A DNA stretch of 64,000 nucleotides, taken from Muribaculum sp. An289. Its GTDB lineage: Bacteria > Bacteroidota > Bacteroidia > Bacteroidales > UBA932. Below are positions 26,102 through 59,152 of this stretch, piece after piece. Positions within the stretch are counted from its first letter, which is position 1. Each line of letters begins with the position of its first letter. The translations under genes were made by a program, and so were the position numbers. The notes under the pieces are model-generated. The model did not search any database. It saw only the letters and a program-made list of their open reading frames with translations, and had not been told where the DNA came from. The stretch is from assembly GCF_002159555.1 (NCBI RefSeq), contig NZ_NFIV01000005.1, positions 124,001-188,000 of the forward strand, read 5' to 3'.

Positions 26102-26270
26102 TTTTTCACCCCATATCCATCGCTTCATTTTGGAGTAATTGATAATCAATAAGTTATAAAAATAGGGCTGCTTTTGGGTGCTTCCTGAGGTACCCAAAAG
26201 CAGGGGTGTTTTTGATAAAGCTCTGATTGTTAGTGTGTTATAAAGACAGCAGCTGGACGTGGGGTAAAAA
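26102..26270. repeat. Three-layer palindromic repeat, copy A
   Basis: Outer inverted repeats (26102-26121, TTTTTCACCCCATATCCATC, and 26250-26270, which reads as its imperfect complement) enclose two AT-rich boxes: 26136-26163 with TTGATAATCAAT, and 26213-26245. These boxes flank a central hairpin whose 12-bp stem is perfect (26168-26179 with 26192-26203, CTGCTTTTGGGT). The same layout recurs at 58,196-58,368 and 58,712-58,879. Confidence 0.8.
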
Positions 26271-26348
26271 ATTCCCGAAAAATTCCCGAAAATCCTCGCA
26301 ATTCTGGCAAAATCTGATTCCTATCCACCTCCTCCGGTTTTTCTTCTT

Positions 26349-26483
26349 TCATGCTTTGTCACTCCAGCCCTCATCGCCAACCACCGCGCATTCGTCCAGC
26401 GCATCGCGGCATACGGAACGGCTGCGCTTCCAGTACCCCTGCCTGCTGTAGCTGAACAGCCGGCACAGCGAAGACACGCTCAT
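26349..26483 (-). pseudogene. IS3-family transposase OrfB, N-terminal remnant
   Basis: A 44-codon frame starting MSVSSLCRLFSYSRQGYWKR, the typical beginning of IS3-group OrfB proteins, then a premature TGA. The catalytic DDE domain is missing. Its ATG overlaps the end of the OrfA-like gene, the normal IS3 arrangement for programmed -1 frameshifting. Confidence 0.7.
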
Positions 26484-26902
26484 TTCTTCGTGGCGCGACT
26501 TGAGTTCGCCGACCGTCCGGCACCTGCTTTTTTTAGCAGGTCTATCCCTTCCTCTTCCTTCAGCTGGCTGAGCATATACTCGTAACCTTCTATCTTTATG
26601 TTAGACATCTTGACCGCCGACTCCAGAGACCTGACCTTCGACTCCAGTTCGCGGATCCTTTCCTTGTCATCCTTTCTCGACATCTCTATCGCGTATTTGT
26701 CCCTCTCGTCAAAGATATCGATTTTACCGCTCCGGTATTGTTCCGACAGCTCCTTTATGCGCTTCAGCGACATCCCGTAGCGGCGGTGCAGCGTTTCGGC
26801 GGGGACACCGCTGTAGTACTCCCGCAGGACATGGGAGTCGCGCTTGCGTAAGAACTTCTGGAGACTCCGGTCCGAGTCGCTGCTTTCTTCTGATTTTCTC
26901 AT
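26480..26902 (-). mobile_element. IS3-family OrfA-like transposase subunit (IS relic)
   Basis: 140 residues from the ATG at 26902 (a TTG start at 26947 is possible). An HTH-like segment (REYYSGVPAETLHRRYGMSL) is followed by a leucine-rich coiled coil (RIRELESKVRSLESAVKMSN) and a tail ending EEGIDLLKKAGAGRS; this tail resembles OrfA proteins of Bacteroidota IS3 elements. Only a stub of OrfB follows, so the element cannot transpose on its own. I did not find intact terminal inverted repeats; palindromic repeats lie on both sides. Confidence 0.68.
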
Positions 26903-26945
26903 CGTTTTTTCCTCCTTTTTTGGTAAACCTTTTTCAGGACGGGAC

Positions 26946-27100
26946 AAAGTTTGGAGCGAGTTGTGTTTTGTTAAGTTGTTAATAATTAGTGAGTTATTAA
27001 AATTCAGCTCGCTTTGGGGTAGTATGCAAACATGGTCAAAAGCGAGTGATATTTTCTTAAATAATTGATAATCAATTGCTTATAAATATTTTTACTCGCT
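26946..27100. repeat. Two AGCGAGT-stem hairpin repeats (copies D1, D2)
   Basis: D1: AGCGAG at 26955-26960 pairs with CTCGCT at 27008-27013. D2: AGCGAGT at 27041-27047 pairs with ACTCGCT at 27094-27100. Each loop holds the AT-rich box (D2 contains AATTGATAATCAATTGCTTA). The left flank AAAGTTTGGAGCGAGTTGT is identical at 58,466. Confidence 0.75.
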
Positions 27101-27167
27101 TTAAACAAAATCGTCAAAACGAAATCGTCAAAAACAAATGCAGCAAAACTAATGCTACAAGGCTAAG

Positions 27168-37489: not shown

Positions 37490-37530
37490 CAGGCAGCTGT
37501 CCGGAAACCGGGCGGCTGCCTGTGTTTTTC
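37490..37530 (+). terminator. Terminator after tRNA-Pro
   Basis: CAGGCAGC (37490-37497) pairs with GCTGCCTG (37515-37522), with an inner CCGG/CCGG stem, followed by TGTTTTTC. Confidence 0.8.
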
Positions 37531-37571
37531 TGGTGACAGTTTCGCTTCTGTCGTGTGTTTTTTGCGCGCGC

Positions 37572-37712
37572 GGTGCAGTCGCTTTGAAATGGTTATTGAT
37601 TATCAACGGGTTATGAAATCGGCTGCACATTTCGGGCTTTTAAAATCTTTGAAATGTGCAAGTGCTTTTGTAATTGTTTGATAATCAATAGGGTTTATGA
37701 TGAAGGCGCACC
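37572..37712. repeat. Palindromic box-hairpin-box repeat beside the transposase (copy F)
   Basis: A perfect 10-bp stem (TGCACATTTC at 37624-37633, GAAATGTGCA at 37651-37660) is flanked by two AT-rich boxes: TTGATTATCAACGGGTTAT (from 37596) and TTGATAATCAATAGGGTTTA (from 37678). Outer GGTGC (37572) and GCACC (37708) complete the three-layer inverted layout seen in copies A-C. Confidence 0.78.
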
Positions 37713-37720
37713 GAACGTGC

Positions 37721-37799
37721 CAGTTTTCCGGGACGGCAGTTTTCCGGGACGGCAGTTCTCGTGGGCATCAGTTTTCAAGGCCACAGTTTTCCGGCACCG
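37721..37799. repeat. 16-bp tandem repeat downstream of the transposase
   Basis: Two perfect copies of CAGTTTTCCGGGACGG (37721, 37737) are followed by three degenerate copies starting near 37753, 37769 and 37784. They fill the gap between repeat F and the 3' end of the transposase gene. Confidence 0.8.
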
Positions 37800-37819
37800 C
37801 CGGGTTTGTGGAGCGGGAT

Positions 37820-38701
37820 TTATAATATTTTCTTCAATATGGCGAGGTCGGTATTTGTCAGTCGCGAAAGTTGTTTTCCTGCGATGCCATATTTTTTATG
37901 GAGGATTTTTGCCAGACTGTAACGCTGTTCGATGCTTAATTCTTCAATGCGGTTCTTATGAAAATTTTCTTGACACAGGCCGGTTATTGAACCGTATAAT
38001 TCGTTGTCGCTGTATTTTGTTTTATGAAGGATGCCGTTATCCAATTCCATTTCCAGATTTTCATTGCGGGAGATTGCATAAAGGAGCCTTGCCGGTGTGC
38101 GGAAGATGTTTTCTACGGCCTCGGTGTCTACATAGCATTCGGGCAAAATCATATTTTCTTCAGAAATAAGGCAGTCGTCCAGCAGGTCGGTCTGGGAGTG
38201 CAGTAGTTCCCGCTTTGTCCTGTAGCTTAACGAGCCTACTTTTCGCACGGTTTTTCCAAAGCGGTTTCCCTCGTGGATTGTTTCTTCGCTTTTCTCCCTG
38301 AAGTACAATTTCTCCCTGAAGTATAATGAGGCGGAGCTCCATGTGTAGTTGCCGGGCATTATGCCGAGTCCGGCAGAAACCGGATTGCGGAGTACGTAAC
38401 CTATCGCTTTCATAAGGTAGCCCATATCTTCAATCGGTCTCATGGTTGTGCCGCTCCTGCTTAAATCTGCAAGGCGGGACAGTTTTCTTCTGTATTGGAA
38501 GATAAACTGTCTGCACGAAACCTTGTTTCCGCGGACAATGAAATGTACGTGGTTGCTCATTAGGCAGAATGCAAGAATCGTTATTTTGTGTTGTACGGCA
38601 CATACGGGTATGCAATTCATACCATCTATGTAATCTTGCCTGCTTCTGAAAATCACATCTTTCTCCAGTCCCTCGGTGCAAATGTGCCAATGATTTTCCA
38701 T
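37820..38701 (-). CDS. Y1-type HUH transposase, RAYT-like
   Basis: 293 residues from the ATG at 38701 (MENHWHICTEG). IS200/REP-associated tyrosine transposase fold: HUH motif in LMSNHVHFIV (H51, H53), and the presumed catalytic Tyr in AIGYVLRNPVSAGL (Y102), followed by YTWSSASLYF, typical of the RAYT/TnpA-REP group rather than minimal 150-residue IS200 TnpA. A long C-terminal extension (about 135-293) ends in an HTH-like segment, RYSLAKILHKKYGIAGKQLS, possibly for DNA binding. An in-frame tandem duplication (YFREK twice, 38,290-38,325) lies mid-protein. No TnpB partner is seen. It is flanked by palindromic repeat F, the layout expected of a single-copy RAYT that mobilises short palindromes in trans; that role is inference. 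Confidence 0.85.
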   Translation of the reverse strand: MENHWHICTEGLEKDVIFRSRQDYIDGMNCIPVCAVQHKITILAFCLMSNHVHFIVRGNKVSCRQFIFQYRRKLSRLADLSRSGTTMRPIEDMGYLMKAIGYVLRNPVSAGLGIMPGNYTWSSASLYFREKLYFREKSEETIHEGNRFGKTVRKVGSLSYRTKRELLHSQTDLLDDCLISEENMILPECYVDTEAVENIFRTPARLLYAISRNENLEMELDNGILHKTKYSDNELYGSITGLCQENFHKNRIEELSIEQRYSLAKILHKKYGIAGKQLSRLTNTDLAILKKIL

Positions 38702-38901
38702 GCTGTGGTTCTCCTGCTGTGGTTCTCCTGCCGGTTGAATGGTAAAAACGATAAATGCTGGCAAAAACGATAAATGACGGCAAACGATAGTGAGGCAAAG
38801 TTAAGCGGGATTTTCTTGTGTGGGGATAACGCTGTGGATGAATTTTTTACGGAAAAATAAAAATGTGGCCGATGATGTGGTCCGGTACTGCAATTTTTCC
38901 C

Positions 38902-38933
38902 TTACAGAAAGTCAAAAAAACTTCTTACTTTTG
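38902..38933 (+). promoter_or_regulatory. Promoter of the beta-barrel gene
   Basis: TACTTTTG at 38926-38933 with TTA at 38902-38904, 21 bp upstream. It rules out a start at 38933 and favours the ATG at 38954. Confidence 0.5.
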
Positions 38934-38953
38934 TGTGCATAATATTAGATTCT

Positions 38954-39682
38954 ATGAAAATGAAATTTTTGTTTTCCATTATGCTGGCGATGTTTGCGGC
39001 GTTTTCCATGTCGGTTTTGCCGGTCATGGCCGGTCAGCCGCAGGACGGGCCGGAAAAGAAGGAGAACCCCGACAAGGGATGGGGTATCGGGATTTCGGCG
39101 GGATATGCCTACAATATGCTTTCCATTCCTGATGCATACGATTATGACCGCCATTATTCTGCCGGTGACGGGTTTTATGTAGCCATTCCGGTGAAGTACA
39201 ATTTCAATGACTGGTTTGCGCTTTCGGGAGAGTTGGCCGCCGTATCGAAGAATTATTCTTCCTACAGGTCGATGCAGATGATGGCCTATCCTTGGGAAAA
39301 GGTAGAAAATTACTATCTGTCCGTACCGGTTTACGCGCAGTTTTCTTTCGGAAGAAAGAAGCTGCGGGGCTTTGTGAATGCCGGCATTTATGCAGGTGCA
39401 TGGCTTTACAGCCACAGGCAGGGTGAGTCTCTCGGGCCTTTCGATTCGGTACTGTATCCTTATGACGAGGTCGTGCCTTTCGATTCGCGCAGGGACAACC
39501 GCTTCGATGCCGGACTTCTTGCTGGCCTGGGCCTGAAGTACAGGGCGGCATCGTGTGTTGAGATATTCGCCGAAGCAAGGTACATGTATGCCCTTACGGA
39601 CATGCAGAAGCAGTACCGTGGACATATTCCGAGGTATAGCAATACAATGGTAGTCCAGGCCGGCGCCGTCTTCATGTTTTAG
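38954..39682 (+). CDS. Outer-membrane beta-barrel protein (PorT/OmpW-like)
   Basis: 242 residues from the ATG at 38954. Signal peptide MKMKFLFSIMLAMFAAFSMS and on to about VMAGQ. The mature part alternates amphipathic strands ending in aromatic residues (GWGIGISAGYAYNML, FYVAIPVKYNFNDWFALSGE, LSVPVYAQFSFG), with a terminal strand ending in Phe (VVQAGAVFMF), the usual barrel signature. It likely forms an 8-10-stranded barrel in the outer membrane. The S41-like lipoprotein follows 30 bases later and is probably co-transcribed. Confidence 0.82.
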   Translation: MKMKFLFSIMLAMFAAFSMSVLPVMAGQPQDGPEKKENPDKGWGIGISAGYAYNMLSIPDAYDYDRHYSAGDGFYVAIPVKYNFNDWFALSGELAAVSKNYSSYRSMQMMAYPWEKVENYYLSVPVYAQFSFGRKKLRGFVNAGIYAGAWLYSHRQGESLGPFDSVLYPYDEVVPFDSRRDNRFDAGLLAGLGLKYRAASCVEIFAEARYMYALTDMQKQYRGHIPRYSNTMVVQAGAVFMF

Positions 39683-39712
39683 GAGTTTTAACGTTTTTAG
39701 GATTTGGAAGTT

Positions 39713-40906
39713 ATGAAGAAAATTTTTCTTTTGATTTGCATATCGGCGGCTTTCCTGCCGTTCGTATCTTGCCAGAAACAGGAAGTCGATTTGCTGCCGC
39801 CTTCGGAGGAAGGGAATTTCACCACCTGGTCGGAAGTTTTTGAATCCTTCTGGAATGCGATGAATTACAATTATGTGTTCTGGGATATAGATGAAACGGA
39901 CTGGGACGCGGTATATGGCAGTTATGCTCCCCGGTTCGAGGCTCTCGGCGATTATACCATGAGCACGTTCGACGAGGCGGGAGAGCTGTTCCAGGAGATG
40001 ACATCCGGCCTTGTGGACCACCACTATCTCTTTGCGCTGAAGAGTACCGAATATTATATTTATTCCCAGCCGGCCCAGATAGAAATTCTTACCAGGGACT
40101 ATTATCATGAGGCGATGGACATACAGCAGCTCATCAATAATGCACAGGCGGAAGTGGCCAATGGCAGGATAACGCAGTTCAGCGGGGCTGCCGGATATGT
40201 AGGTGATTCCTATATGGTCGCAATGTCATATCTGATAGACAATGTGGCTTATATCTATTTTTCGGGATTCCACTGGACGTATCTGATGTATTATACCGAT
40301 AATCTCGAAAGTAACGCAATGTATCAGGTATACCGGAACTTCTTCGACATCATAGACAATACGCCGGGACTGAAAGGTGTGATAATCGATGTGAGGAACA
40401 ACGGTGGAGGCTATCTAAACGATTTGAATCTTATGCATTCGATGCTGATGAGCGAGCCGACACAGATAATGTGGATGAGGACGAAAAACGGTCTGGGACG
40501 TTATGATTACGGCCCGTGGACCCCTTGCATGGCATATCCGGCCGAGGACAGCCGTCGGATTCAGGTTCCGTTGGTGCAGCTTGTAGACCTCAATTCGGTT
40601 TCCATGTCGGAGATGTCTTCGCTGCTTGTGAAGGAACTGCCTAACGGTGCGGTAATAGGTGAAAGGACTTACGGAGGCCTGGGAGCCCTGATGGGCAATT
40701 TCGACTACAGTTATACCGGAGAGGTCGAAAACGCTTCGTACTGGATTTATACCACTACGACTATGGGCAAGGACATGCAGGGCAACAGGGTTGAAGGCAT
40801 AGGCGTTATTCCTGATGTGGAAGTGCTTTTCGACCGCGAATCCTTCATGGCTGGTACGGATGTACAGCTGGAAGCTGCATTGGACTATATCGAATCGGCG
40901 CAGTAA
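39713..40906 (+). CDS. S41-family lipoprotein, possibly altered active site
   Basis: 397 residues from MKKIFLLI. Lipobox FVSCQ near residue 21. No PDZ domain is evident; the N-terminal part (about 35-100) resembles the helical TSP/retinol-binding-like region of S41 proteins. The protease core has GVIIDVRNNGGGYLNDL and VDLNSVSMSEMSSLLVKEL with the nucleophile Ser before Glu. The block that normally carries the general-base Lys (GxRTYGKG) reads GERTYGGLGALMG, without Lys at that site. Related Bacteroidota lipoproteins often show this variant, so activity cannot be assumed. Six bases downstream the frameshifted TPR-AraC gene begins. Confidence 0.85.
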   Translation: MKKIFLLICISAAFLPFVSCQKQEVDLLPPSEEGNFTTWSEVFESFWNAMNYNYVFWDIDETDWDAVYGSYAPRFEALGDYTMSTFDEAGELFQEMTSGLVDHHYLFALKSTEYYIYSQPAQIEILTRDYYHEAMDIQQLINNAQAEVANGRITQFSGAAGYVGDSYMVAMSYLIDNVAYIYFSGFHWTYLMYYTDNLESNAMYQVYRNFFDIIDNTPGLKGVIIDVRNNGGGYLNDLNLMHSMLMSEPTQIMWMRTKNGLGRYDYGPWTPCMAYPAEDSRRIQVPLVQLVDLNSVSMSEMSSLLVKELPNGAVIGERTYGGLGALMGNFDYSYTGEVENASYWIYTTTTMGKDMQGNRVEGIGVIPDVEVLFDRESFMAGTDVQLEAALDYIESAQ

Positions 40907-40912
40907 CCGCAG

Positions 40913-42438
40913 GTGCGCTGTCTGAAATATAGGATTTTTGTATGGGGAGTGCTTGCGGCGGTTTTTGCTGCCGCAGGCATTTCTTCCTATGCTGCCGTGG
41001 GAAATGATGTCGCCCTGGATGGTGATATTGCCGAAGAGGAGGTCCGGGATTTATGGGTAAGCCTTACCCGTGAGCGCAGATTTGCCGAATTGGCTGAGAA
41101 AATACCTCTGTATCTGGCTTCTTTGCCGTATGGTGCGGCGGACGGGGATGGGAAAACCATTGACGAGGAAGTCCTGTTCGCCCGCGCGAATCTTGCGCAG
41201 GCTTACCTGTTTATGGAAGATTTCGGCCGGTGCGAGGAGGAATTGTCCCGTATCGGGAAAGTACTTCCGCAGGTTTCCGATTACCACATAGGATTGCAAA
41301 GGCTGAAAACGATACGAACAATATGTTTTACGGGGCAGTAATGGCGGCCCAGATGGGAATCGTAGCCGGAGATTACAGGATAGCCGAGGCTTATGCCGAC
41401 TCGGCGTCCCGTTATGTCGCTTCCAGGAAAAACAGTTCGCAGGAGGCTCTGTTGCAATTGCTGCATGGCGAAATATATTATGCGATGGGCGATTATGTCA
41501 AGGCGGATTCGGCATATTCCCGTTTTGCTTCCCGGCTGGACTCCCAGGAGCCCGGTCTGCGCCTGGAGTACATGTACAAGCAGGGATGTTTAGAGCTGGC
41601 ATGGGGCAACCCGGAAAGGGCACGCAGGCTTTTCGAGGACGGTCTTGCCCTTTCGTATTCTATCGACAATATCGAAGACCGCCATCATTTTCTTTCGGGC
41701 CTGTCGGATTTTTATTCATCGGTGGGCGACGACCGTACCGCCCTGTCGTATTATAAAGAATACCATCATCTTTTGGACAGTCTGTCGTTATTGACGAAAG
41801 AGCGCGATTTCCACAATCTTCTGATGAACTATCAGAAAATGGGTTATGAGGAGAAAGTCCACAGGCAGGAAATGGAAAATGAACGTGTCCGGTCAAAATA
41901 TGTGATAATATTTTCGGCCTTCATTTTAGTTTCTTCCCTTTCTGCCGGCCTGTGGTTTCTGTACCGCCGGAGGAACAGGATGTACAGGCAGCTGGTAGAG
42001 CAGCACCAGCGTTTCCTGCACCGTGCTGAAATCTCCGCTTGCGAAACAGCAGTCGGGCCGGGCACGGAGGACAATGAGAAAAGCAGGTCGCTGTTCATGG
42101 AGGCCGAAAAAATCATGTCGCGGGACAAGATATATAGGCAGAATGACCTGTCTTTGGAAAAACTGGCCGATATTTTACAAAGCAACCGTTCATACGTGTC
42201 TTCCGCCATAAACCAGTATTCGGGAATGTCCTTTACGCAGTGGCTTAATTCGTGGCGTATAAAAGAAGCCATAGCGAGATTGTCCGACCCTGCCGATACC
42301 GCTCCTCTGAAAGCCATATCGGATGAAGTCGGATTCAATACGATTGCGGTTTTCTACAAGGCGTTCCAGAAGGAAACCGGCTGCCCTCCCGCAAAATACC
42401 GTAAGGAAATGCGCAATATCGGGCATATTTCTTATTGA
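40913..42438 (+). pseudogene. TPR-transmembrane-AraC regulator, frameshifted near 41,298
   Basis: GTG start at 40913 gives a signal peptide (MRCLKYRIFVWGVLAAVFA...). The first frame encodes TPR-like helices to YHIGLQ and then stops at 41341. The second frame carries on the same protein from AENDTNNMFYGAVMAAQMG through TPR helices, one membrane helix (YVIIFSAFILVSSLSAGLWF) and a C-terminal AraC HTH (LSLEKLADILQSNRSYVSSA, then GMSFTQWLNSWRIKEA). One more A in the AAA at about 41297-41299 would join them into one protein of about 508 residues. Intact members are membrane-anchored one-component regulators that sense in the periplasm. This could be a true inactivating mutation or a sequencing error; a reinitiated cytoplasmic AraC fragment is also possible. 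Confidence 0.8.
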
Positions 42439-42470
42439 TTCTACAAATTTATTTATCAATAATTTTCTTT

Positions 42471-42502
42471 TTGCCCCCGTATGTTTCCGAGGTTTATCTT
42501 TG
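42471..42502 (+). promoter_or_regulatory. Promoter of the BACON-like lipoprotein gene
   Basis: TATCTTTG at 42495-42502 with TTG at 42471-42473, 21 bp spacing. The next in-frame ATG is at 42531, so longer upstream frames are rejected. Confidence 0.6.
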
Positions 42503-42530
42503 CCTGCGGAACAATAAAAATTTTTGGAAT

Positions 42531-43640
42531 ATGGAACGTTTTATCAAAGAAAATTTATGGGCCGCACTTGTTTCCGCCGCGCTGTTGCCGGTGGCGTGCG
42601 AAAAAGAGCCCGTAGTTGTCGAGCCGAGGCTCGATTTTGAAAACGCGGTTGTAGAGGCTCCGGTCGAAGGGGGTGTTCTGGAATTGCCGTACGTACTGGA
42701 GGGGGCAGGAGAGTCCCCGGTGCTGAAGGCGGTGTGTGACGAAGAATGGCTCGCTTTCGATTTTACGGAGCAGAACATGCTTAGAATCACTGTCAATGCG
42801 ACAGATACGCGGGAGAGGAGGACCGCGGATGCAAGGATAATCGTTCCGGGTCATGCCTTGGAAGCAGAGGTTACGGTAGAGCAAGGGGGTGGCGAATTGC
42901 CTGATTTTACCTTTACGTTTCATGATATTACAGAGAGCATCGCCACCCTTGATATTATTCCGTACGATACGGAGGCCGGTTATATAACCTTTCTCAGGCT
43001 TGCAGATGAGGTGGGGAACCTTTCGGATGACGAGTTGCATGAACTCGATGTACAGTATTGGATAGATTCTTATTATGGAATGTACGGGATAGAGGAGATA
43101 ATGCCTTTGGTCACCTTGTACGGGAACAAGTTCAATGAACGCATGTTCAGTCTTGTTCCGGATACGGAATACTGCATTTACGCATACGGGGTCGATGCAC
43201 AGGGAGAAAGACTGACACCTGTGACGAAAGCATGGTTTACTGCGGAAACGCTTGAGATGTCCGATACCTCTTTCGAGATAATGGTAACGAAAGGTACTGA
43301 AAATGAAAAAGGGCAGATACCGGTGCATATAACGTATAAGCCCGATGACAATGAGACGAATTACCTTACCGGATTTACCGTATGGTCGGAAGGAATGGAT
43401 ATGGATGCGCTGATCGAGCAGCAGCAGATTATCCTGAATGATTTCATAGTCAAGAATATGACTTTCGGGGCAATACCTCTGGAAGATGTGATAGCGCATT
43501 ATTATCCGGCCGGCGAGCAGTCGGACGATTTCACTCCGATGAAAGACTACGAATTTGTCGTATACTGCATGTGCGTGGCTCCTTGCGGGCTCATAAATTC
43601 GGAAGTCATTTATAAAACATTCGATACGTTCGTAGAATAG
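42531..43640 (+). CDS. Lipoprotein with N-terminal BACON-like domain
   Basis: 369 residues from the ATG at 42531. Signal peptide ends in the lipobox LPVACEKE. Residues about 28-120 resemble a BACON/Ig-like domain (APVEGGVLELPYVL, CDEEWLAFDF, RERRTADARIIVPG, AEVTVEQGGG). Two further beta-rich modules follow (FTFTFHDITESIATLDIIPY and TLEMSDTSFEIMV), each starting like fibronectin-type domains that answer the phrase structure of Bacteroidota surface lipoproteins. Probably a surface-exposed binding protein. A smaller relative lies 35 bases downstream. Confidence 0.8.
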   Translation: MERFIKENLWAALVSAALLPVACEKEPVVVEPRLDFENAVVEAPVEGGVLELPYVLEGAGESPVLKAVCDEEWLAFDFTEQNMLRITVNATDTRERRTADARIIVPGHALEAEVTVEQGGGELPDFTFTFHDITESIATLDIIPYDTEAGYITFLRLADEVGNLSDDELHELDVQYWIDSYYGMYGIEEIMPLVTLYGNKFNERMFSLVPDTEYCIYAYGVDAQGERLTPVTKAWFTAETLEMSDTSFEIMVTKGTENEKGQIPVHITYKPDDNETNYLTGFTVWSEGMDMDALIEQQQIILNDFIVKNMTFGAIPLEDVIAHYYPAGEQSDDFTPMKDYEFVVYCMCVAPCGLINSEVIYKTFDTFVE

Positions 43641-43675
43641 GAAGCTGTTCGTAAAAATTTTAAAAACAGAGAATT

Positions 43676-44128
43676 ATGAAAGAATTTGTAAAATATGCAT
43701 TTTTAATGTCGGTCCTTTTTCCGGTTTTTTCATGTGAAAGGATGGATATGCCGCCAAAACCTGAAATATCCATTTCGATTGACGTTCCCGAAATAGGGCA
43801 GACCTTTGCGAATGCGGTTTTCGAGGCGGAACAGGATACCGCGACATTTTATTGCGGGATTATCCACGAGTCGATGTATGTCGATGATGAGACAATAAAG
43901 ATGAACGATATGCTGCTGCTTGAAGATTTTGCTGAAAGGGAGGGCATATCGGTGGCGGAGGCGATAAGGAAGAATGTGGCCGTGGGACGGGCCGAAAAGG
44001 ATTATTCCGGCCTCTGCCCGGGACTTTCCTACTATGTCTATGCATACGAACTGGATACCGACGGCATGGCGACCGGTCCGGTTTATAAGGAAAAAAACGA
44101 TATTGAAATAGGAATATATCAAAAATAA
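43676..44128 (+). CDS. Small lipoprotein related to the preceding gene
   Basis: 150 residues, lipobox PVFSCERM. The mature part matches the last module of the upstream lipoprotein in pattern: a strand pair, an acidic helix region (LLLEDFAEREGISVAEAIRK) and LCPGLSYYVYAYELDTDG, comparable to VPDTEYCIYAYGVDAQG there. It is probably a duplicated and shortened relative, co-transcribed with it. Function unknown. Confidence 0.7.
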   Translation: MKEFVKYAFLMSVLFPVFSCERMDMPPKPEISISIDVPEIGQTFANAVFEAEQDTATFYCGIIHESMYVDDETIKMNDMLLLEDFAEREGISVAEAIRKNVAVGRAEKDYSGLCPGLSYYVYAYELDTDGMATGPVYKEKNDIEIGIYQK

Positions 44129-44259
44129 GCTACTTATAAGCATTTCTCAAAGAACGAGGTAATGACTTGGAAACAGTCACAAATTCTGCAATATGCGGTA
44201 AATTTCTGTCAAACAACTCTTGTCTTAGCGCAAAGATACGGAAAAGCAACCAAATTCTA

Positions 44260-44610
44260 TTACCGTTTCCCATATTTCTTTTCAAATAATTCTGTATTCT
44301 TCTCTCCCCATGCAATCATAGCATCGATGATGGGAATAAGCGTCATCCCCAACGGAGTGATAGCATACTCCGAACGAGGAGGCAGTTCAGGGTAGATGGT
44401 CTTCGATACGAGCCCGTCCTCTACCAGTTCCTTCAGTTGCAAGTCGAGCACACGAGGCGTGGCTTCGGGAAATATCTTGTGCAATTCACTGGGACGCAGG
44501 GCACGGTGGCGCAGTTCGTCCAAGATGCATGACTTCCACTTGGAATCAATCAGGCTCATGGTCAGCCGCAAGGGACAGTCCAAATCTACGGGTATCTTTC
44601 TTTCGTACAT
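44260..44610 (-). CDS. HxlR-family winged-helix regulator
   Basis: 116 residues. The HxlR pattern is clear: CPLRLTMSLIDSKWKSCIL at 12-30 with the conserved N-terminal Cys (C12), LRPSELHKIFPEATPRVLDLQLKELVEDG as the winged HTH, and YAITPLGMTLIPIIDAM. The Cys often acts as a redox or electrophile switch in this family. It is divergent from a gene set for an NTF2-like protein and two flavoproteins, so it most likely controls them. Confidence 0.93.
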   Translation of the reverse strand: MYERKIPVDLDCPLRLTMSLIDSKWKSCILDELRHRALRPSELHKIFPEATPRVLDLQLKELVEDGLVSKTIYPELPPRSEYAITPLGMTLIPIIDAMIAWGEKNTELFEKKYGKR

Positions 44611-44639
44611 GGTTTTATCTTTATTGAATGTTACGCCTG

Positions 44640-44743
44640 CAAAGGTAAGGATAATATATCGTAACGGGTATATACCGAATAATTTTTCAGTATATGAATA
44701 ATTTTTCGGTACTTGTGCAAACTGGAGGAATCACCTACCTTTG
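44640..44743. promoter_or_regulatory. Divergent promoters with duplicated candidate HxlR site
   Basis: Minus -7 box TACCTTTG (44640-44647) for hxlR and plus -7 box TACCTTTG (44736-44743, TTG at 44713-44715, 20 bp) for the flavoprotein operon. Between them GAATAATTTTTC occurs twice (44678-44689 and 44696-44707), 18 bp apart, bounded by ACCGAA (44674-44679) and TTCGGT (44705-44710). This is a good candidate operator. Confidence 0.6.
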
Positions 44744-44781
44744 CAGCATCAAAACAAGATAATCAATTAAACATTAGCATC

Positions 44782-45165
44782 ATGAGAGCAAATATCGAAG
44801 AGTACAAGGCAGTGGAAGAAGCTGCCATGAAGTTTGTGAAAAGTGTGGCAGAAGGCAACAGCAAGTATGCCCGCGAATTGTTTATTGACGAAGCCGTCTT
44901 ATTCGGCTACTTGGACGGGAAGCTGGAGCACGGCAGCATCGAGCAGTTCTACCACAATGTGGACACCGTAGGCGCAGGCGATGACTTCAAGGCACGTATC
45001 GACGTGGTGGACGTAGAAGAGACCCTCGCCGTGGTGCGCGTGCTGGAAGAGAAATGGGGAGGCCGTATCGACTTCACCGACTACCTGCTGCTGATGAAGA
45101 TGGACGGCGAGTGGCGGTGCGTGGCGAAGGCGTACAATCAGAATTCGAATACCATTCAAAAGTAA
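44782..45165 (+). CDS. NTF2/SnoaL-like (lumazine-binding type) protein
   Basis: 127 residues from the ATG at 44782. The pattern fits the NTF2-like cone fold: long N-terminal helix (VEEAAMKFVKSVAEGNSKYA), LFIDEAVLFGYLDGKL, then strands DVVDVEETLAVVRVLEE and FTDYLLLMKMDGEWRCVAKAY. Members of the putative lumazine-binding group are small enzymes or binding proteins; no active site can be assigned. First gene of the HxlR-controlled set, 12 bases before the first flavoprotein. Confidence 0.8.
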   Translation: MRANIEEYKAVEEAAMKFVKSVAEGNSKYARELFIDEAVLFGYLDGKLEHGSIEQFYHNVDTVGAGDDFKARIDVVDVEETLAVVRVLEEKWGGRIDFTDYLLLMKMDGEWRCVAKAYNQNSNTIQK

Positions 45166-45177
45166 GGAGGAAGCGTC

Positions 45178-45717
45178 ATGAAGATAACAGTTATTACGGG
45201 AAGTCCACGCAAGCATGGCAACAGCTTTGCCATGACGGACGCATTTATCAGGGAAGCGGAGACACTCGGCCACACGGTGCAACGATTTGATGCCGCACTG
45301 ATGAAGATAGGCGGTTGCCGTGCCTGCCAGACCTGCTTCAAGACGGGCAAGGCTTGTTCGTTCGACGACGATTTTAACCTTATCGCACCTGCCATTATGG
45401 AAGCCGATGCTGTTGTATTCACCATGCCAACCTACTGGTATTCCATTCCGGCACAGATAAAGGGTGTGATTGACCGCCTGTTTTCATTCGTGGTGGGCGG
45501 AAAGGATATCGCCGGAAAGAAATGCGGACTGATAGCCTGCTGCGAAGAAAACGACGTGACGGTAATGGACGGCATCCGTATGCCGCTGGAACGTTCTGCC
45601 GCTCTGCTGAAATGGGAGATGGCTGGCGAAGTGCTTATTACCGGAGTATTGAACGAAGGTGACATCAACAAGACGGACGGCTGCAAGCAAGCGGCTGAAC
45701 TGGCGCATAAATTCTGA
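45178..45717 (+). CDS. Flavodoxin-fold iron-sulfur flavoprotein (first copy)
   Basis: 179 residues. FMN-binding start MKITVITGSPRKHGNSFAMTDAF, then CRACQTCFKTGKAC with Cys at 47, 50, 53 and 60, the compact spacing seen in Isf-type [4Fe-4S] flavoproteins, and FTMPTYWYSIPAQIKGVIDRLF near the flavin. It should be an NAD(P)H- or ferredoxin-linked oxidoreductase; the substrate is unknown. The link to an HxlR regulator suggests a response to quinones, electrophiles or redox stress. Confidence 0.88.
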   Translation: MKITVITGSPRKHGNSFAMTDAFIREAETLGHTVQRFDAALMKIGGCRACQTCFKTGKACSFDDDFNLIAPAIMEADAVVFTMPTYWYSIPAQIKGVIDRLFSFVVGGKDIAGKKCGLIACCEENDVTVMDGIRMPLERSAALLKWEMAGEVLITGVLNEGDINKTDGCKQAAELAHKF

Positions 45718-45721
45718 ACGT

Positions 45722-46354
45722 ATGAAGGTATTGTTGATTAATGGCAGCCCGAATCAAACGGGCTGCACCTATACCGCCCTGCACGAAGTGGAAACCACCT
45801 TGCAGGCAAACGGTATTGAGACGGAATTGCTGTATTTAGGCAAGAAGCCCATAGTGGGCTGCATCGCCTGTGGAGCCTGCATGAAGACAGGACATTGTTT
45901 CCGCGACGACCTCGTGCAAGAGATACAGAAACGGCTGGATGAATTTGATGCCATCGTCATCGGTTCTCCGGTTTATTACAGTGCACCAACGGGGCAACTC
46001 GTTTCGTTCCTGAACCGCCTGTTCTTCGCCACGGAAAACCGCATGGCGGGCAAGCTCGGCGCATCAGTAGTATCGTGCCGCCGTGGTGGAGCCTCCGCCA
46101 CCTTCGAGCAATTGAATCAATATTTCACTATTGCGAATATGCCTATCGTAGCATCGCAATACTGGAACTCGGTACACGGCTTCACACCCGACGATGTGCG
46201 CAAGGACAAGGAAGGCTTGCAGACCATGCGCATCTTGGGGCAAAATATGGCGTGGTTGCTAAAGTGCATTGAAAGCGGACGGAAGAACGGCGTTCGCAAG
46301 CCGGAATATGAACCGAGAATGCGGACGCACTTCATCCAAGACAAATATGAATAA
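45722..46354 (+). CDS. Flavodoxin-fold iron-sulfur flavoprotein (second copy)
   Basis: 210 residues from the ATG at 45722, four bases after the previous stop. Same architecture: MKVLLINGSPNQTGCTYTAL, Cys at 47, 50, 53 and 59 in CIACGACMKTGHC, and VIGSPVYYSAPTGQLVSFL. A C-terminal extension (about 150-210) is rich in Arg/Lys and includes VASQYWNSVHGFTPDDV. The pair are ancient paralogues rather than a recent duplication, judging by low identity outside motifs. Confidence 0.88.
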   Translation: MKVLLINGSPNQTGCTYTALHEVETTLQANGIETELLYLGKKPIVGCIACGACMKTGHCFRDDLVQEIQKRLDEFDAIVIGSPVYYSAPTGQLVSFLNRLFFATENRMAGKLGASVVSCRRGGASATFEQLNQYFTIANMPIVASQYWNSVHGFTPDDVRKDKEGLQTMRILGQNMAWLLKCIESGRKNGVRKPEYEPRMRTHFIQDKYE

Positions 46355-46373
46355 CCAAACTTAACAAGAAAAC

Positions 46374-46640
46374 TTATAGATTTTTGAGTAGAGGATGTTT
46401 CCTGTCCGATTTTGAATTTAACCAACGGGAGGATAGCAAGCGGTTTTGGTCTGCATTTTCATTGACAAAAGACATTATGTCTTTTGTTATCCTTTTACTG
46501 TCCCGTGTAGCATCTTTCCAATAGTCATCTTCCCTGATATTGCATAAAGCAAGCAGTGTCAGTGCCGACATTTCATTTTGCTGGGGGATTGGCAGTCCCA
46601 GGTTTTTCAGTATTTCCTGCGCTTCGCTAATTTTTCCCAT
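46374..46640 (-). pseudogene. N-terminal fragment of a BsuBI/PstI-type restriction endonuclease
   Basis: 88 residues. The first 75 (MGKISEAQEILKNLGLPIPQ, QNEMSALTLLALCNIREDDY) match the N-terminal helical domain of BsuBI/PstI restriction endonucleases, which are over 300 residues long. The catalytic domain is absent; the end (SDRKHPLLKNL) is probably foreign. It directly follows the methyltransferase fragment, two bases apart, as in an intact operon. Confidence 0.75.
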
Positions 46641-46642
46641 AG

Positions 46643-47188
46643 TTATCGGATATTAAAATATTCTATCAGGATTTTATTGATATAATCAATAGAATAGTCG
46701 TTGTTCAGGATTATTTTTCTGCCGATTTCCTGAATGGTTCCAATGTCAGGCATTGGCATGATTTTAAGTTCGGTAGCACTTACATTTGTATTGCCGTTGA
46801 ACGTTCTGAAATAAGTGTCGAAAATATTGCTGTTAAGAAGGGCGGAAATTCCCATTACTTCATCTCTTTTCAGACGTCCTCCCGGCCTGTGCATGTAATT
46901 GAGTTTGTTTTCGATGCCGATTAGCTCGTATTTGGACATGTTGCCGAAATATGGTGCTGCAATCAGTCTGCTGTCATCATCTTTGGAACTGAATCTTCTT
47001 AACAGTATGTAATTTTTGTTAGGCAATAAATACGCTTTTGTGTTTTTATTGGCAATTATATACTGTCCTTTGTGTTTTTTGTCATTTTGCGCCGTTGTAT
47101 GAGAATATATATTGCCCAACCGTTCTGCGTATTCGGACGGCTTTTCTTTCTCTGTGGGCAAGTTTATATTCATATCCATAGAAGGCAA
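46643..47188 (-). pseudogene. C-terminal fragment of an adenine-specific DNA methyltransferase
   Basis: 181 residues with IANKNTKAYLLPNKNYILLRR, YELIGIENKLNYMHRPGG, GISALLNSNIFDTYFRTFNG and NTNVSATELKIMPMP: the target-recognition end of Eco57I/PstI-type N6-adenine methyltransferases. The SAM-binding and NPPY catalytic motifs are missing, so it cannot methylate DNA. With the adjacent endonuclease fragment it is a restriction-modification relic truncated at both ends. Confidence 0.78.
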
Positions 47189-47203
47189 ATATACGCATAA
47201 TCT

Positions 47204-48340
47204 TTATATTCCCAGCAACTTGCACACTTTCCGGTGTACCTCGGTGTTGTCAATCAGTCCGTGGAACTCTTCGGCGCCCGGGCCGTAAGCGAACAGAGGT
47301 ACCGGAACACCGGTGTGTCCGCCCGTAGACCATCTGAAATCGATGCCGCTGTCGCCCTTGTTGAAGTCGCTGTCGTTGGATGCCATGGTAAGCCCTCCTG
47401 TTTCATGGTCGGCGGTTACGATTACGAGGGTCCCCGGATGACTGTCAGCGAATCTTTTGGCTACAAGCATGACCGAGTTTATCTCCTCCATGTCCTTGAC
47501 AAGCGGGCCGTCCAGATGGTCGTGGCATGAAAAATCTATCTGCGACTCTTCCACCATCAGCAGGAAACCGTCCGGACTGTTCTTGCCGAGGATGTCCAAG
47601 GCGGCCTGGGTGCATTCAGCGAGCATTCCGGGCTTGCGTTCATCGGTGTCGGGGAAATGCTTTTTGAAAGGCAGGAAAATGATATTGTCCCACTCCTCGG
47701 GTATTGAAGAGATGAAAGAATAATCGTTCAGGACGACATTGTAGCCCATCGCTTTCAGAGAGTCGAGGCGTGCGTTGCCTCCGTTTTCATCGGGTGCGAA
47801 CATCCCGGAGCCTCCGGTGAAGACGACATCGAGTCCGGATGAAAGAAAATCATCGGCTATGCCTTCGTCATCATGCCTCGTGATGTTGTGGGCGTACATT
47901 GCGGCCGGAGTCGCGTGTGTGAACGAGCAAAGGGTCACAATGCCGCATTCCAGGCCGGCGGCCTCGCATTTTTCGGCAAAGTTCGGGACATTGCAGCTGT
48001 CGGCATCCATCCCGAGGGAGGAATTGTTCGTCTTGTGTCCGGTAAACAGTGCGGTGCCTCCTGCGGCCGAATCCGTAACACGGTTATTCGCCGAATGTGT
48101 CGTGACAAAGGCGGTCTGCGGGAACAGTCCGAATGCGTTGGTGTCGGGGCGGGCCGTCTCCAGGGCGGCCACCTGTGCCAGTCCCATTCCGTCGCCTACG
48201 ATGAATATTACATTCCTGACTTCCCGGTCGGTCTTTCCGTCCGTTGCGCTATCTGAAAAGGAATCGCTCCTTCCGGCACATCCGTAAAGTGCCATCAGGA
48301 GCGATAATAAGATAGCGGCTGAAAAAATATTATTTTTCAT
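47204..48340 (-). CDS. Alkaline phosphatase, lipoprotein
   Basis: 378 residues from the ATG at 48340, giving a signal peptide with lipobox LYGC (C21); an in-frame upstream extension is basic and rejected. Metal ligand Asp in VIFIVGDGMG (D50), the phosphorylated Ser in RVTDSAAGGTALF (S91), CGIVTLCSFTHATPAAMYAH, DFSCHDHLDG, VIVTADHETGGL and STGGHTGVPVPLFAYGPGA are the PhoA-type blocks with zinc and magnesium ligands. It releases phosphate from organic esters at the cell surface or periplasm. No Pho box was identified. Confidence 0.94.
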   Translation of the reverse strand: MKNNIFSAAILLSLLMALYGCAGRSDSFSDSATDGKTDREVRNVIFIVGDGMGLAQVAALETARPDTNAFGLFPQTAFVTTHSANNRVTDSAAGGTALFTGHKTNNSSLGMDADSCNVPNFAEKCEAAGLECGIVTLCSFTHATPAAMYAHNITRHDDEGIADDFLSSGLDVVFTGGSGMFAPDENGGNARLDSLKAMGYNVVLNDYSFISSIPEEWDNIIFLPFKKHFPDTDERKPGMLAECTQAALDILGKNSPDGFLLMVEESQIDFSCHDHLDGPLVKDMEEINSVMLVAKRFADSHPGTLVIVTADHETGGLTMASNDSDFNKGDSGIDFRWSTGGHTGVPVPLFAYGPGAEEFHGLIDNTEVHRKVCKLLGI

Positions 48341-48357
48341 TATGCCGTGTTTGCGGT

Positions 48358-49548
48358 TTATTTTAAAACACCGAGTTCTTTTCCTACCTTTACGAAAGCG
48401 GCTATGCACTTGTCAAGGTGCTCTTTCTCGTGTCCCGCGGAAATCTGTACGCGGATACGCGCCTGATCCTTAGGAACTACCGGATAATAGAAGCCCACTA
48501 CGTAGATGCCTTCCTGGAGAAGCCTGTCGGCCATCTGCTGCGACAGTTTCGCATCGTAAAGCATTACGGCGCAGATTGCGGACTGGGTAGGTTTGATATC
48601 GAAGCCTGCCTCGACCATCTTCTTGATGAAGTAGTCGGTGTTTGCATGGAGCTTGTCCTGGAGCGCGTTGGTTTCGGCCATCATGTCGAACATGCGGATT
48701 GCGGCTCCGGCAACCATAGGAGGTATGGAGTTGGAGAAGAGGTATGGCCTTGACCTCTGCCTCAGCATGGCGATGATTTCTTTCTTACCGGTAGTGAAAC
48801 CGCCGATTGCGCCTCCGAATGCCTTTCCGAGGGTACCGGTGATGATTTCAATTTTGCCCCTGAGGTTGTGGAGCTCGGTTACGCCCCTTCCTGTCGCGCC
48901 TACTACTCCGGCAGAGTGGGACTCGTCGACCATTACCATTGCATTGTACTTGTTGGCCAGCTCGTAAATCTTGTCGAGAGGGGCTACGTTTCCGTCCATC
49001 GAGAACACGCCGTCGGTAACGATGATACGGTGCCTCTGTGCCTGTGCGAGTTTGAGGCATTCCTCAAGTTCGTTCATGTCGGCGTTGGCATAACGGTATC
49101 TCTTTGCCTTGCAGAGACGTACTCCGTCTATGATGGATGCGTGGTTGAGCGCATCGGAAATTATTGCATCCTGTTCATTGAGAAGAGGTTCGAAAACTCC
49201 TCCGTTCGCATCGAAGCATGCTGCATACAGGATAGTGTCTTCGGTTCCGAAAAATTCGGCGATTTTCGCCTCCAGTTTTTTGTGGAGATCCTGTGTTCCG
49301 CAGATGAAACGTACAGATGACATTCCGTAACCGTGCGTATCGAGTGCTTCTTTAGCGGCTTTTATAAGCTCTTTATTGTCGGAAAGGCCGAGGTAGTTGT
49401 TGGCGCAGAAGTTGATTACTTCCTGTCCCGAAGCTACTTTGATTGCAGCTTTCTGAGGCGTTGTGATTATCCTTTCTTCCTTGTAAAGTCCGGCTTCCTT
49501 GATGGCGTTGAGCTCATCTGTGAGGAATTTTTGAAAATCTGTGTACAT
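48358..49548 (-). CDS. kbl: Glycine C-acetyltransferase (2-amino-3-ketobutyrate CoA ligase)
   Basis: 396 residues; cleaves 2-amino-3-ketobutyrate with CoA to glycine and acetyl-CoA in threonine breakdown. It belongs to the alpha-oxoamine synthase PLP family: INFCANNYLGLSDN, GYGMSSVRFICGTQDLHKKLE, DALNHASIIDGVRL, MVMVDESHSAGVVGATGRG, and the PLP Lys in ITGTLGKAFGGAIGG. The start MYTDFQKFLTDEL fits Kbl better than serine palmitoyltransferase or BioF homologues. No threonine dehydrogenase gene is adjacent. Confidence 0.92.
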   Translation of the reverse strand: MYTDFQKFLTDELNAIKEAGLYKEERIITTPQKAAIKVASGQEVINFCANNYLGLSDNKELIKAAKEALDTHGYGMSSVRFICGTQDLHKKLEAKIAEFFGTEDTILYAACFDANGGVFEPLLNEQDAIISDALNHASIIDGVRLCKAKRYRYANADMNELEECLKLAQAQRHRIIVTDGVFSMDGNVAPLDKIYELANKYNAMVMVDESHSAGVVGATGRGVTELHNLRGKIEIITGTLGKAFGGAIGGFTTGKKEIIAMLRQRSRPYLFSNSIPPMVAGAAIRMFDMMAETNALQDKLHANTDYFIKKMVEAGFDIKPTQSAICAVMLYDAKLSQQMADRLLQEGIYVVGFYYPVVPKDQARIRVQISAGHEKEHLDKCIAAFVKVGKELGVLK

Positions 49549-56122: not shown

Positions 56123-56380
56123 GGGAAAGTGCACCAATTTTCCATGAATCCGAGGCACTTTTCCCCGGGATGAAATAGGACAATCGCTTCTGCTGCCATT
56201 CTGCCTGCATTCCTCGTCCGTCCTATCGGGGGAAAGTGAACCGAATTTCCACGAATCAGTGGCACTTTCCCCTGGGATGAAATAGGGCAATCGCTTCTAC
56301 GGCCCTTCTGCCTGCATTCCTCGTCTGTTCTATCAGGGGAAAGTGAACCGTTTTGCCGCGAATCCGCGGCACTTTCCCCG
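56123..56380. repeat. 107-bp tandem palindromic repeat
   Basis: Three hairpins with stems GGGGAAAGTG/CACTTTCCCC (56123-56166 degenerate, 56228-56272, 56336-56379) recur at 107-bp spacing. The spacer of each unit begins GATGAAATAGGACAATCGC (56169) or nearly the same (56276). No coding sense found on either strand. Confidence 0.85.
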
Positions 56381-58195: not shown

Positions 58196-58368
58196 TTTTC
58201 TACCCCACAGCTAGCTATTGCTCTTGTAAAAGCATTGATAGTAAATGGTTTATAGAAATCACATCTGCGCTTGGGTGCTTTCTGAGGCACCCAAAGCCAG
58301 CTTGTGCTTTTGTAAATCGTTGATTATTAATCATTCCGAAAGAGGACGGCTGGCTGTGGGGTGGAAAG
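58196..58368. repeat. Three-layer palindromic repeat, copy B
   Basis: Outer arms TTTTCTACCCCACAGC (58196) and GCTGTGGGGTGGAAA (58353). Boxes at 58225-58259 and 58308-58342 (TTGATTATTAATCATT). The central hairpin 58265-58300 has TTGGGTGC paired with GCACCCAA. Same order and spacing as copy A. Confidence 0.78.
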
Positions 58369-58711: not shown

Positions 58712-58879
58712 TTTTTCCACCCCATATCCATCTGTTGCTTTTGTAATGTATTAATAATCAATGGTTTATCAAAATTGCTCCTGCTTTTGGGTATGTCAGG
58801 AAGTACCCAAGCGCAGGATGGTTTTTAGTAATTTATTGATTGTCAGCGGTTTATTAAAATGTCGGATGGACATGAGGTG
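58712..58879. repeat. Three-layer palindromic repeat, copy C
   Basis: Left arm TTTTTCCACCCCATATCCAT (58712) is nearly identical to copy A. Boxes at 58741-58775 and 58826-58860. The central hairpin 58780-58817 has CCTGC...GGGTA paired with TACCC...GCAGG. The right arm (GGATGGACATGAGGTG, 58864) is more diverged. Confidence 0.78.
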
Positions 58880-59152
58880 CAGTTGCCGGTGCAGTTGATG
58901 GTGCAGGTTGATGTCGATTGATGCAGGTTGATGCCGACCAGTGCCAATTGGTGCAGCTGATGGTGCATGCTGGTGGCAAGCTGCGCAGAGATTTGGGGAT
59001 AATGTGAAAAATCGCGTGTAAAAATATCCGGATAATGTGAAAATTTTATATATTTTGGTGTCGGATAATGTGAAACCATTGCGCCGGTTTCTTATTGGGC
59101 ATAAAGGGAGGTATGAAAAAATAGCCCTAATCTGGTTCAGCATTTTCAGAAA
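58870..59152. repeat. Degenerate tandem repeats, including a 33-bp-period array
   Basis: From about 58,878 to 58,975 words like GGTGCAGTTGATGGTGCAG repeat irregularly. At 58997, 59030 and 59063 the 13-mer GGATAATGTGAAA occurs exactly every 33 bp with unrelated 20-bp spacers. No gene seen; on the minus strand the array would read as an 11-residue repeat starting FTLS, but the frame has no start context. Confidence 0.7.

Follow-up and report, generated by a model that had tools for sequence, protein, structure and literature searches.

RAYT/REP systems have been described mainly from Proteobacteria, and RAYTs are regarded as single-copy, vertically inherited genes (PMC8049555); the members that have been studied provide the model for a mechanism of binding, cleavage and rejoining (PMC8266576). 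TIRYTs are Y1 proteins with long inverted repeats at their flanks, some of these double-palindromic, which can form moderately abundant families (PMC3733652). Among the published subclasses, no REP-like repeats were found near members of subclass 2.1, and subclass 2.6, or RAYT group 5, comprises proteins of Bacteroidetes with a median length of 179 amino acids and the motifs WQ and YIH[QN]NP (PMC6006769). Here we describe a RAYT-like gene and its adjoining palindromic element, F, in a stretch of 64,000 nucleotides from Muribaculum sp. An289 (contig NZ_NFIV01000005.1, positions 124,001 to 188,000), referred to as the window. The gene and F probably represent a cognate pair which serves F-type elements only and which would have come from a Coprenecus-like donor, while the type 1, type 2 and GGGGAAAG repeats are other systems in the same genome.

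The transposase and element F

The gene and the parts of the element lie in the window as follows.

37820..38701, minus strand: RAYT-like Y1/HUH transposase gene, 293 aa from the ATG, with H51, H53, Y102 and a C-terminal helical extension
about 37571..37714: element F, with an outer stem CGGTGC/GCACCG, two boxes that pair mutually and an inner hairpin; putative cognate element of the RAYT lineage
37596..37606, plus strand: F box 1, TTGATTATCAA, a perfect box
37624..37660: F inner hairpin, TGCACATTTC, a 17-nt loop and GAAATGTGCA; the stem is common to RAYT-flanking elements in Coprenecus
37678..37688, plus strand: F box 2, TTGATAATCAA, a perfect box complementary to box 1

The reading frame of the window RAYT is open and the catalytic residues H51, H53 and Y102 are all present, as well as invariant in 46/46 aligned relatives, in agreement with the Y1 transposase of the preliminary description. 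The scores of the protein fall below threshold both for Pfam Y1_Tnp (21.8 bits, cut-off 23) and for NCBIfam NF047646, the REP-associated tyrosine transposases (29 bits, cut-off 80), which marks it as a divergent relative, hence the label 'RAYT-like'. Single-sequence and profile searches of the PDB with the window protein gave no convincing match, and kinship is seen by fold only. The predicted structure (mean pLDDT 87.9) has as its best PDB match 4er8, the E. coli RAYT with a REP hairpin (Z 13.9 over 148 residues, rmsd 2.9), followed by the IS608 transposase at Z 8.0; on this model the protein is RAYT-like by fold, which supports the earlier assignment to the RAYT type. Its relatives have a median length of 283 aa, most carry the Y motif YVLRNP (37/46 aligned relatives), and a W between HUH and Y is found in only 10/46.

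Element F lies about 105 bp beyond the RAYT stop codon and is present on one side of the gene only. The box–hairpin–box layout with a perfect stem, as first noted, is confirmed: both boxes are perfect, and the inner stem comprises 10 bp with no mismatch around its 17-nt loop. As single-stranded DNA the element is predicted to form a single long rod with the two boxes paired together (fold z -2.9; 3/200 shuffles as good). At about 145 bp, with dispersed copies of 163-165 bp, F is larger than the 20-40 nt REP/REPIN unit, and the canonical GT[AG]G is absent from its hairpin foot. By analogy with studied RAYTs, we infer binding, cleavage and transposition of F by the window protein. Single-stranded F would fold to a long hairpin with its boxes paired and the GCACATTT/AAATGTGC stem at the tip; the protein would bind this F-type hairpin in single-stranded DNA, Y102 would cleave near the hairpin foot and the cleaved strand would be rejoined elsewhere. 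Copies would in this way spread in trans, the gene itself seldom moving.

Association of F with one RAYT lineage

The closest relatives of the window RAYT, 55-60% identical, are found in the Coprenecus group, and these carry the F stem 88-393 nt from the gene. Across RAYT loci the GCACATTT/AAATGTGC stem occurs near the gene in 6/6 members of the window RAYT clade versus 0/75 others (Fisher 3e-9), that is, gene lineage and hairpin are inherited together. With F adjoining the gene, the stem present throughout the clade and 10 copies of the F-type pattern GCACATTT..AAATGTGC in the genome (0 for a control pattern), the window RAYT has a palindromic family of its own at its flank, and the sequence comparison supports F as the cognate flanking element of this lineage. 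In the tree the window RAYT is sister to L171 (support 99/96), the F-hairpin clade (100/93) lies inside a Coprenecus-dominated clade (100/98), and the window RAYT is set apart from C8, C31 and C35a of its own genome (95/96). This nesting among Coprenecus RAYTs, away from the others of the same genome, suggests joint horizontal acquisition; the simplest reading is that gene and hairpin were acquired together from another genus, with differential loss as the alternative. Both the transfer and its direction are deduced from sequence relationships, and none of the window genes neighbouring the RAYT was matched in the Coprenecus loci.

A survey of 250 genomes of the family extends this association. 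All seven genomes with a RAYT at least 57% identical to that of the window have F hairpins (7/7, with 2-10 each), whereas only 6/243 others have two or more. Beyond this species and the Coprenecus group, F-type hairpins are nearly absent, and the sister species G001 and G002 have neither a close RAYT (>=57% identity) nor F hairpins. F hairpins without a close RAYT occur in ten other genomes, eight of them of the genus Coprenecus; six genomes of that genus have 2-9 F hairpins in this situation, and G165 has 9 with no RAYT hit at E 1e-20. Such cases may stem from gene loss, from gaps in the assembly or from another mover, the absence of a RAYT being uncertain because most of the genomes are metagenome assemblies in which gene-adjacent repeats break contigs. 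A parallel is provided by E. coli strains which lack a RAYT and still keep REPINs (PMC8049555). The link between gene and hairpin loses strength when only the two genera are considered (rank test p 0.006), and the wider RAYT–hairpin association in large part tracks phylogeny. Outside the fixed 8 bp, pairing of the stem is maintained despite changed bases (45/46 versus a shuffle mean of 38).

The dispersed copies bear on an alternative which we regard as unlikely, namely that F copies are passive passengers in a GGGGAAAG mosaic, that the RAYT is inactive or domesticated and that the link between the two reflects old ancestry only. In all six dispersed copies that were read (163-165 bp) the outer stem is extended and has GTAG at its foot, and all six lie in the same GGGGAAAG mosaic, with AAGTGAAC-like and CTTTCC-like flanks and further homology; they therefore do not count as independent and may have travelled with the mosaic. 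These common flanks, together with the persistence of F hairpins in genomes without a close RAYT, are what passive carriage would predict. Against it stand the intact catalytic residues and open frame of the window RAYT, the retention of the hairpin at non-syntenic positions and across genera, and flank pairs of up to 98% identity beside RAYTs other than that of the window, which imply recent copying or conversion at those loci.

Comparison with the sister species offers hints of movement or loss. At the tsf/tRNA-Pro locus of G001 the tRNA is directly followed by the gene corresponding to window 47201-48513, and a stretch of about 9.7 kb that contains F and the RAYT (window 37500-47200) is missing at this position, so that a clean empty site of F is not readable. 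A search for empty sites over ~560 kb of G001 gave two spacers without elements and without exact borders: one which carries a type-1 element here measures 378 bp versus 36 bp in G001, and one with an F-type and a type-1 element measures 1369 bp versus 96 bp. These differences suggest that elements have moved or been lost since the split from G001, and neither the G001 spacers nor the tsf/tRNA-Pro locus yielded an F insertion with exact borders. At C35a, an upstream element missing in G002 lies between short repeats, an arrangement that fits deletion or insertion alike.

Several hairpin families and several RAYTs in one genome

The box pattern, allowing up to two mismatches, has 217 matches in the genome versus 5 when the pattern is reversed as a control. 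The window repeats nevertheless fall into several families, with the box in common and different stems. Those of the families other than F, and a second RAYT with its elements, are located as follows.

26108..26262: type-1 box–hairpin–box element of related layout but another family, not assigned to the window RAYT
26950..27103: type-2 box–hairpin–box element of related layout but another family; no RAYT was found for type 2
58204..58367: type-1 element, other family
58714..58880: type-1 element, other family
G000:C31:65146-65885: C31 RAYT (L062), broken frame, with type-1 elements on both sides

The similarity of F to the other copies in the preliminary description holds for the layout and the boxes, which recur in the 26-kb and 58-kb repeats, but not for the stem sequence. 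Copies of type 1, whose arms are CCCAYAGCCAGCC and whose tip is TTGGGT..ACCCAA, number 55 here; G001 lacks them, and G002 yields a single match that looks like chance. Type 2, CTCGCTTTTGA..AAAAGCGAG, has at least 5 exact copies in the genome, several of them no more than a few hundred bp from a type-1 element; these families were counted by sequence pattern. A 155-aa ORF (26480-26947, minus strand), for which no Pfam or NCBIfam match reached cut-off, is enclosed by a type-1 and a type-2 element (window 26108-27103), and the two types lie close together elsewhere too, as if ends of one composite. A separate array at window 56123-56380 repeats a 107-bp unit in tandem, with GGGGAAAGTGAACCG..CACTTTCCCC hairpins, and is represented by 5 exact copies genome-wide; repeats like these also lie at the flanks of a RAYT fragment on C32 and of its G002 relative.

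The RAYT type had been described as single-copy in other bacteria, but this 2.3-Mb genome contains some seven RAYTs, whether genes or remnants, and several of them have an element of their own: the window gene, C8, the C31 gene, two on C35 and two fragments on C32. One C35 RAYT is flanked by a long palindrome that recurs next to its G001 and G002 orthologs, the second has a further, different repeat at its flank, and a C32 fragment is flanked by GGGGAAAG repeats. The C31 gene, with its type-1 neighbours, is likely a former mobiliser of type 1. Such pairing is common among 70 RAYT loci from this group of Bacteroidales, collected from public genomes by a scan with the closer-relative alignment A2: matching flanks on both sides (>=40 bits) were found at 36/70 loci versus 0/150 cross-locus and 0/59 far-flank controls, and in 22/42 clusters after clustering at 75% identity. 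RAYT pairs at least 60% identical usually have flanking sequence in common, in part through shared ancestry of the locus, and pairs below 50% almost never do. On these alignments, stems are specific to RAYT lineages.

It was originally proposed that the window RAYT mobilises the whole repeat group, with the box as common recognition site of all box–hairpin–box repeats of the genome. The strong enrichment of the box and the box and layout common to types 1, 2 and F speak in favour of this, but we consider it rather improbable: the repeats at 26 and 58 kb are mostly type 1, which lies on both sides of another RAYT, that of C31, the stems appear lineage-specific, and single boxes are frequent in genomes without a RAYT. 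The TTGATNATCAA box alone gives 107 matches in G003 and 75 in G007, both lacking a RAYT of this family, but 1 in G033, which has 12 RAYTs. The number of boxes per genome showed no association with RAYT presence, and was dropped as a test once sites had been inspected, because those of the RAYT-less genomes are single boxes, not box–hairpin–box elements. The comparison of repeats with transposase presence that had been suggested as a check thus fails by box counts, and gives a strong association when made with the specific hairpin.

The inspected boxes (L111-L140; G003, G007 and G026) lie close to the start of genes or inside coding regions. Single palindromic TTGATNATCAA boxes often have TTAC/GTAA adjacent, and several are found just upstream of genes; in Bacteroidales without this RAYT family they possibly represent a separate regulatory site. 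The idea that the hairpins themselves are host regulatory or terminator structures beside a RAYT by chance draws on this position of single boxes, but the lineage-specific pairing of flanks (6/6 versus 0/75 for the F stem; 36/70 versus 0/150 for flank pairing) already contradicts it, and the type-1-bearing spacer, 378 bp here and 36 bp in the sister species, also speaks against it; the idea is highly improbable.

Comparison with known systems

Several RAYT lineages with distinct hairpins are present in one 2.3-Mb genome, and one gene–hairpin pair has apparently crossed genera. Cognate and non-cognate pairs form a natural series here, in which hairpin recognition by the protein can be put to a direct test. 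More tentatively, and with the balance leaning slightly against it, in this Bacteroidales RAYT-like branch each gene lineage and its large double-stem element might be a unit transferred between genera, reseeding families in the recipient; if true, such intergeneric units would contrast with the published picture of single-copy, vertical RAYTs.

Judged by the published descriptions, the window RAYT does not fit subclass 2.1, on its Y motif, or subclass 2.6, on Y motif, length and W. Subclass 2.6/group 5 resembles the present system in its Bacteroidetes hosts and in atypical flanking secondary structures that recur at other genomic positions, but the proteins here have a median of 283 aa, the W is not conserved and the motif is YVLRNP. 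The TnpA proteins of IS200/IS605 have in common the Y1 HUH fold and hairpin substrates, but their fold match is weaker (Z <=8.0), and no compact IS of the IS200/IS605 layout, in which two short ends enclose the gene, was found here. REPtrons, in which RAYT/TnpA-REP is combined with REP/REPIN (4er8), are alike in the HUH motif with a single Tyr, in the predicted fold (Z 13.9), in flanking palindromes that recur in the genome and in having one element family per gene. They differ in the element, which here measures ~145-165 bp and has an outer stem, boxes and an inner hairpin as against a REP of 20-40 nt, and which at F lacks the GT[AG]G foot, as well as in the protein, which here has a median of 283 aa with an extra helical C-terminal part and is encoded by several divergent genes per genome. 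TIRYTs, mostly of subclass 2.1 (PMC6006769), have Y[IV]HLNP/YIELNP where YVLRNP is found here, and their GGGGWSAS motif is absent from F; with long palindromic flanking repeats and a long C-terminal extension, the TIRtron is nevertheless the nearest described arrangement. The locus is thus most likely REPtron/TIRtron-like, a RAYT-like transposase with a non-autonomous palindromic element of its own lineage.
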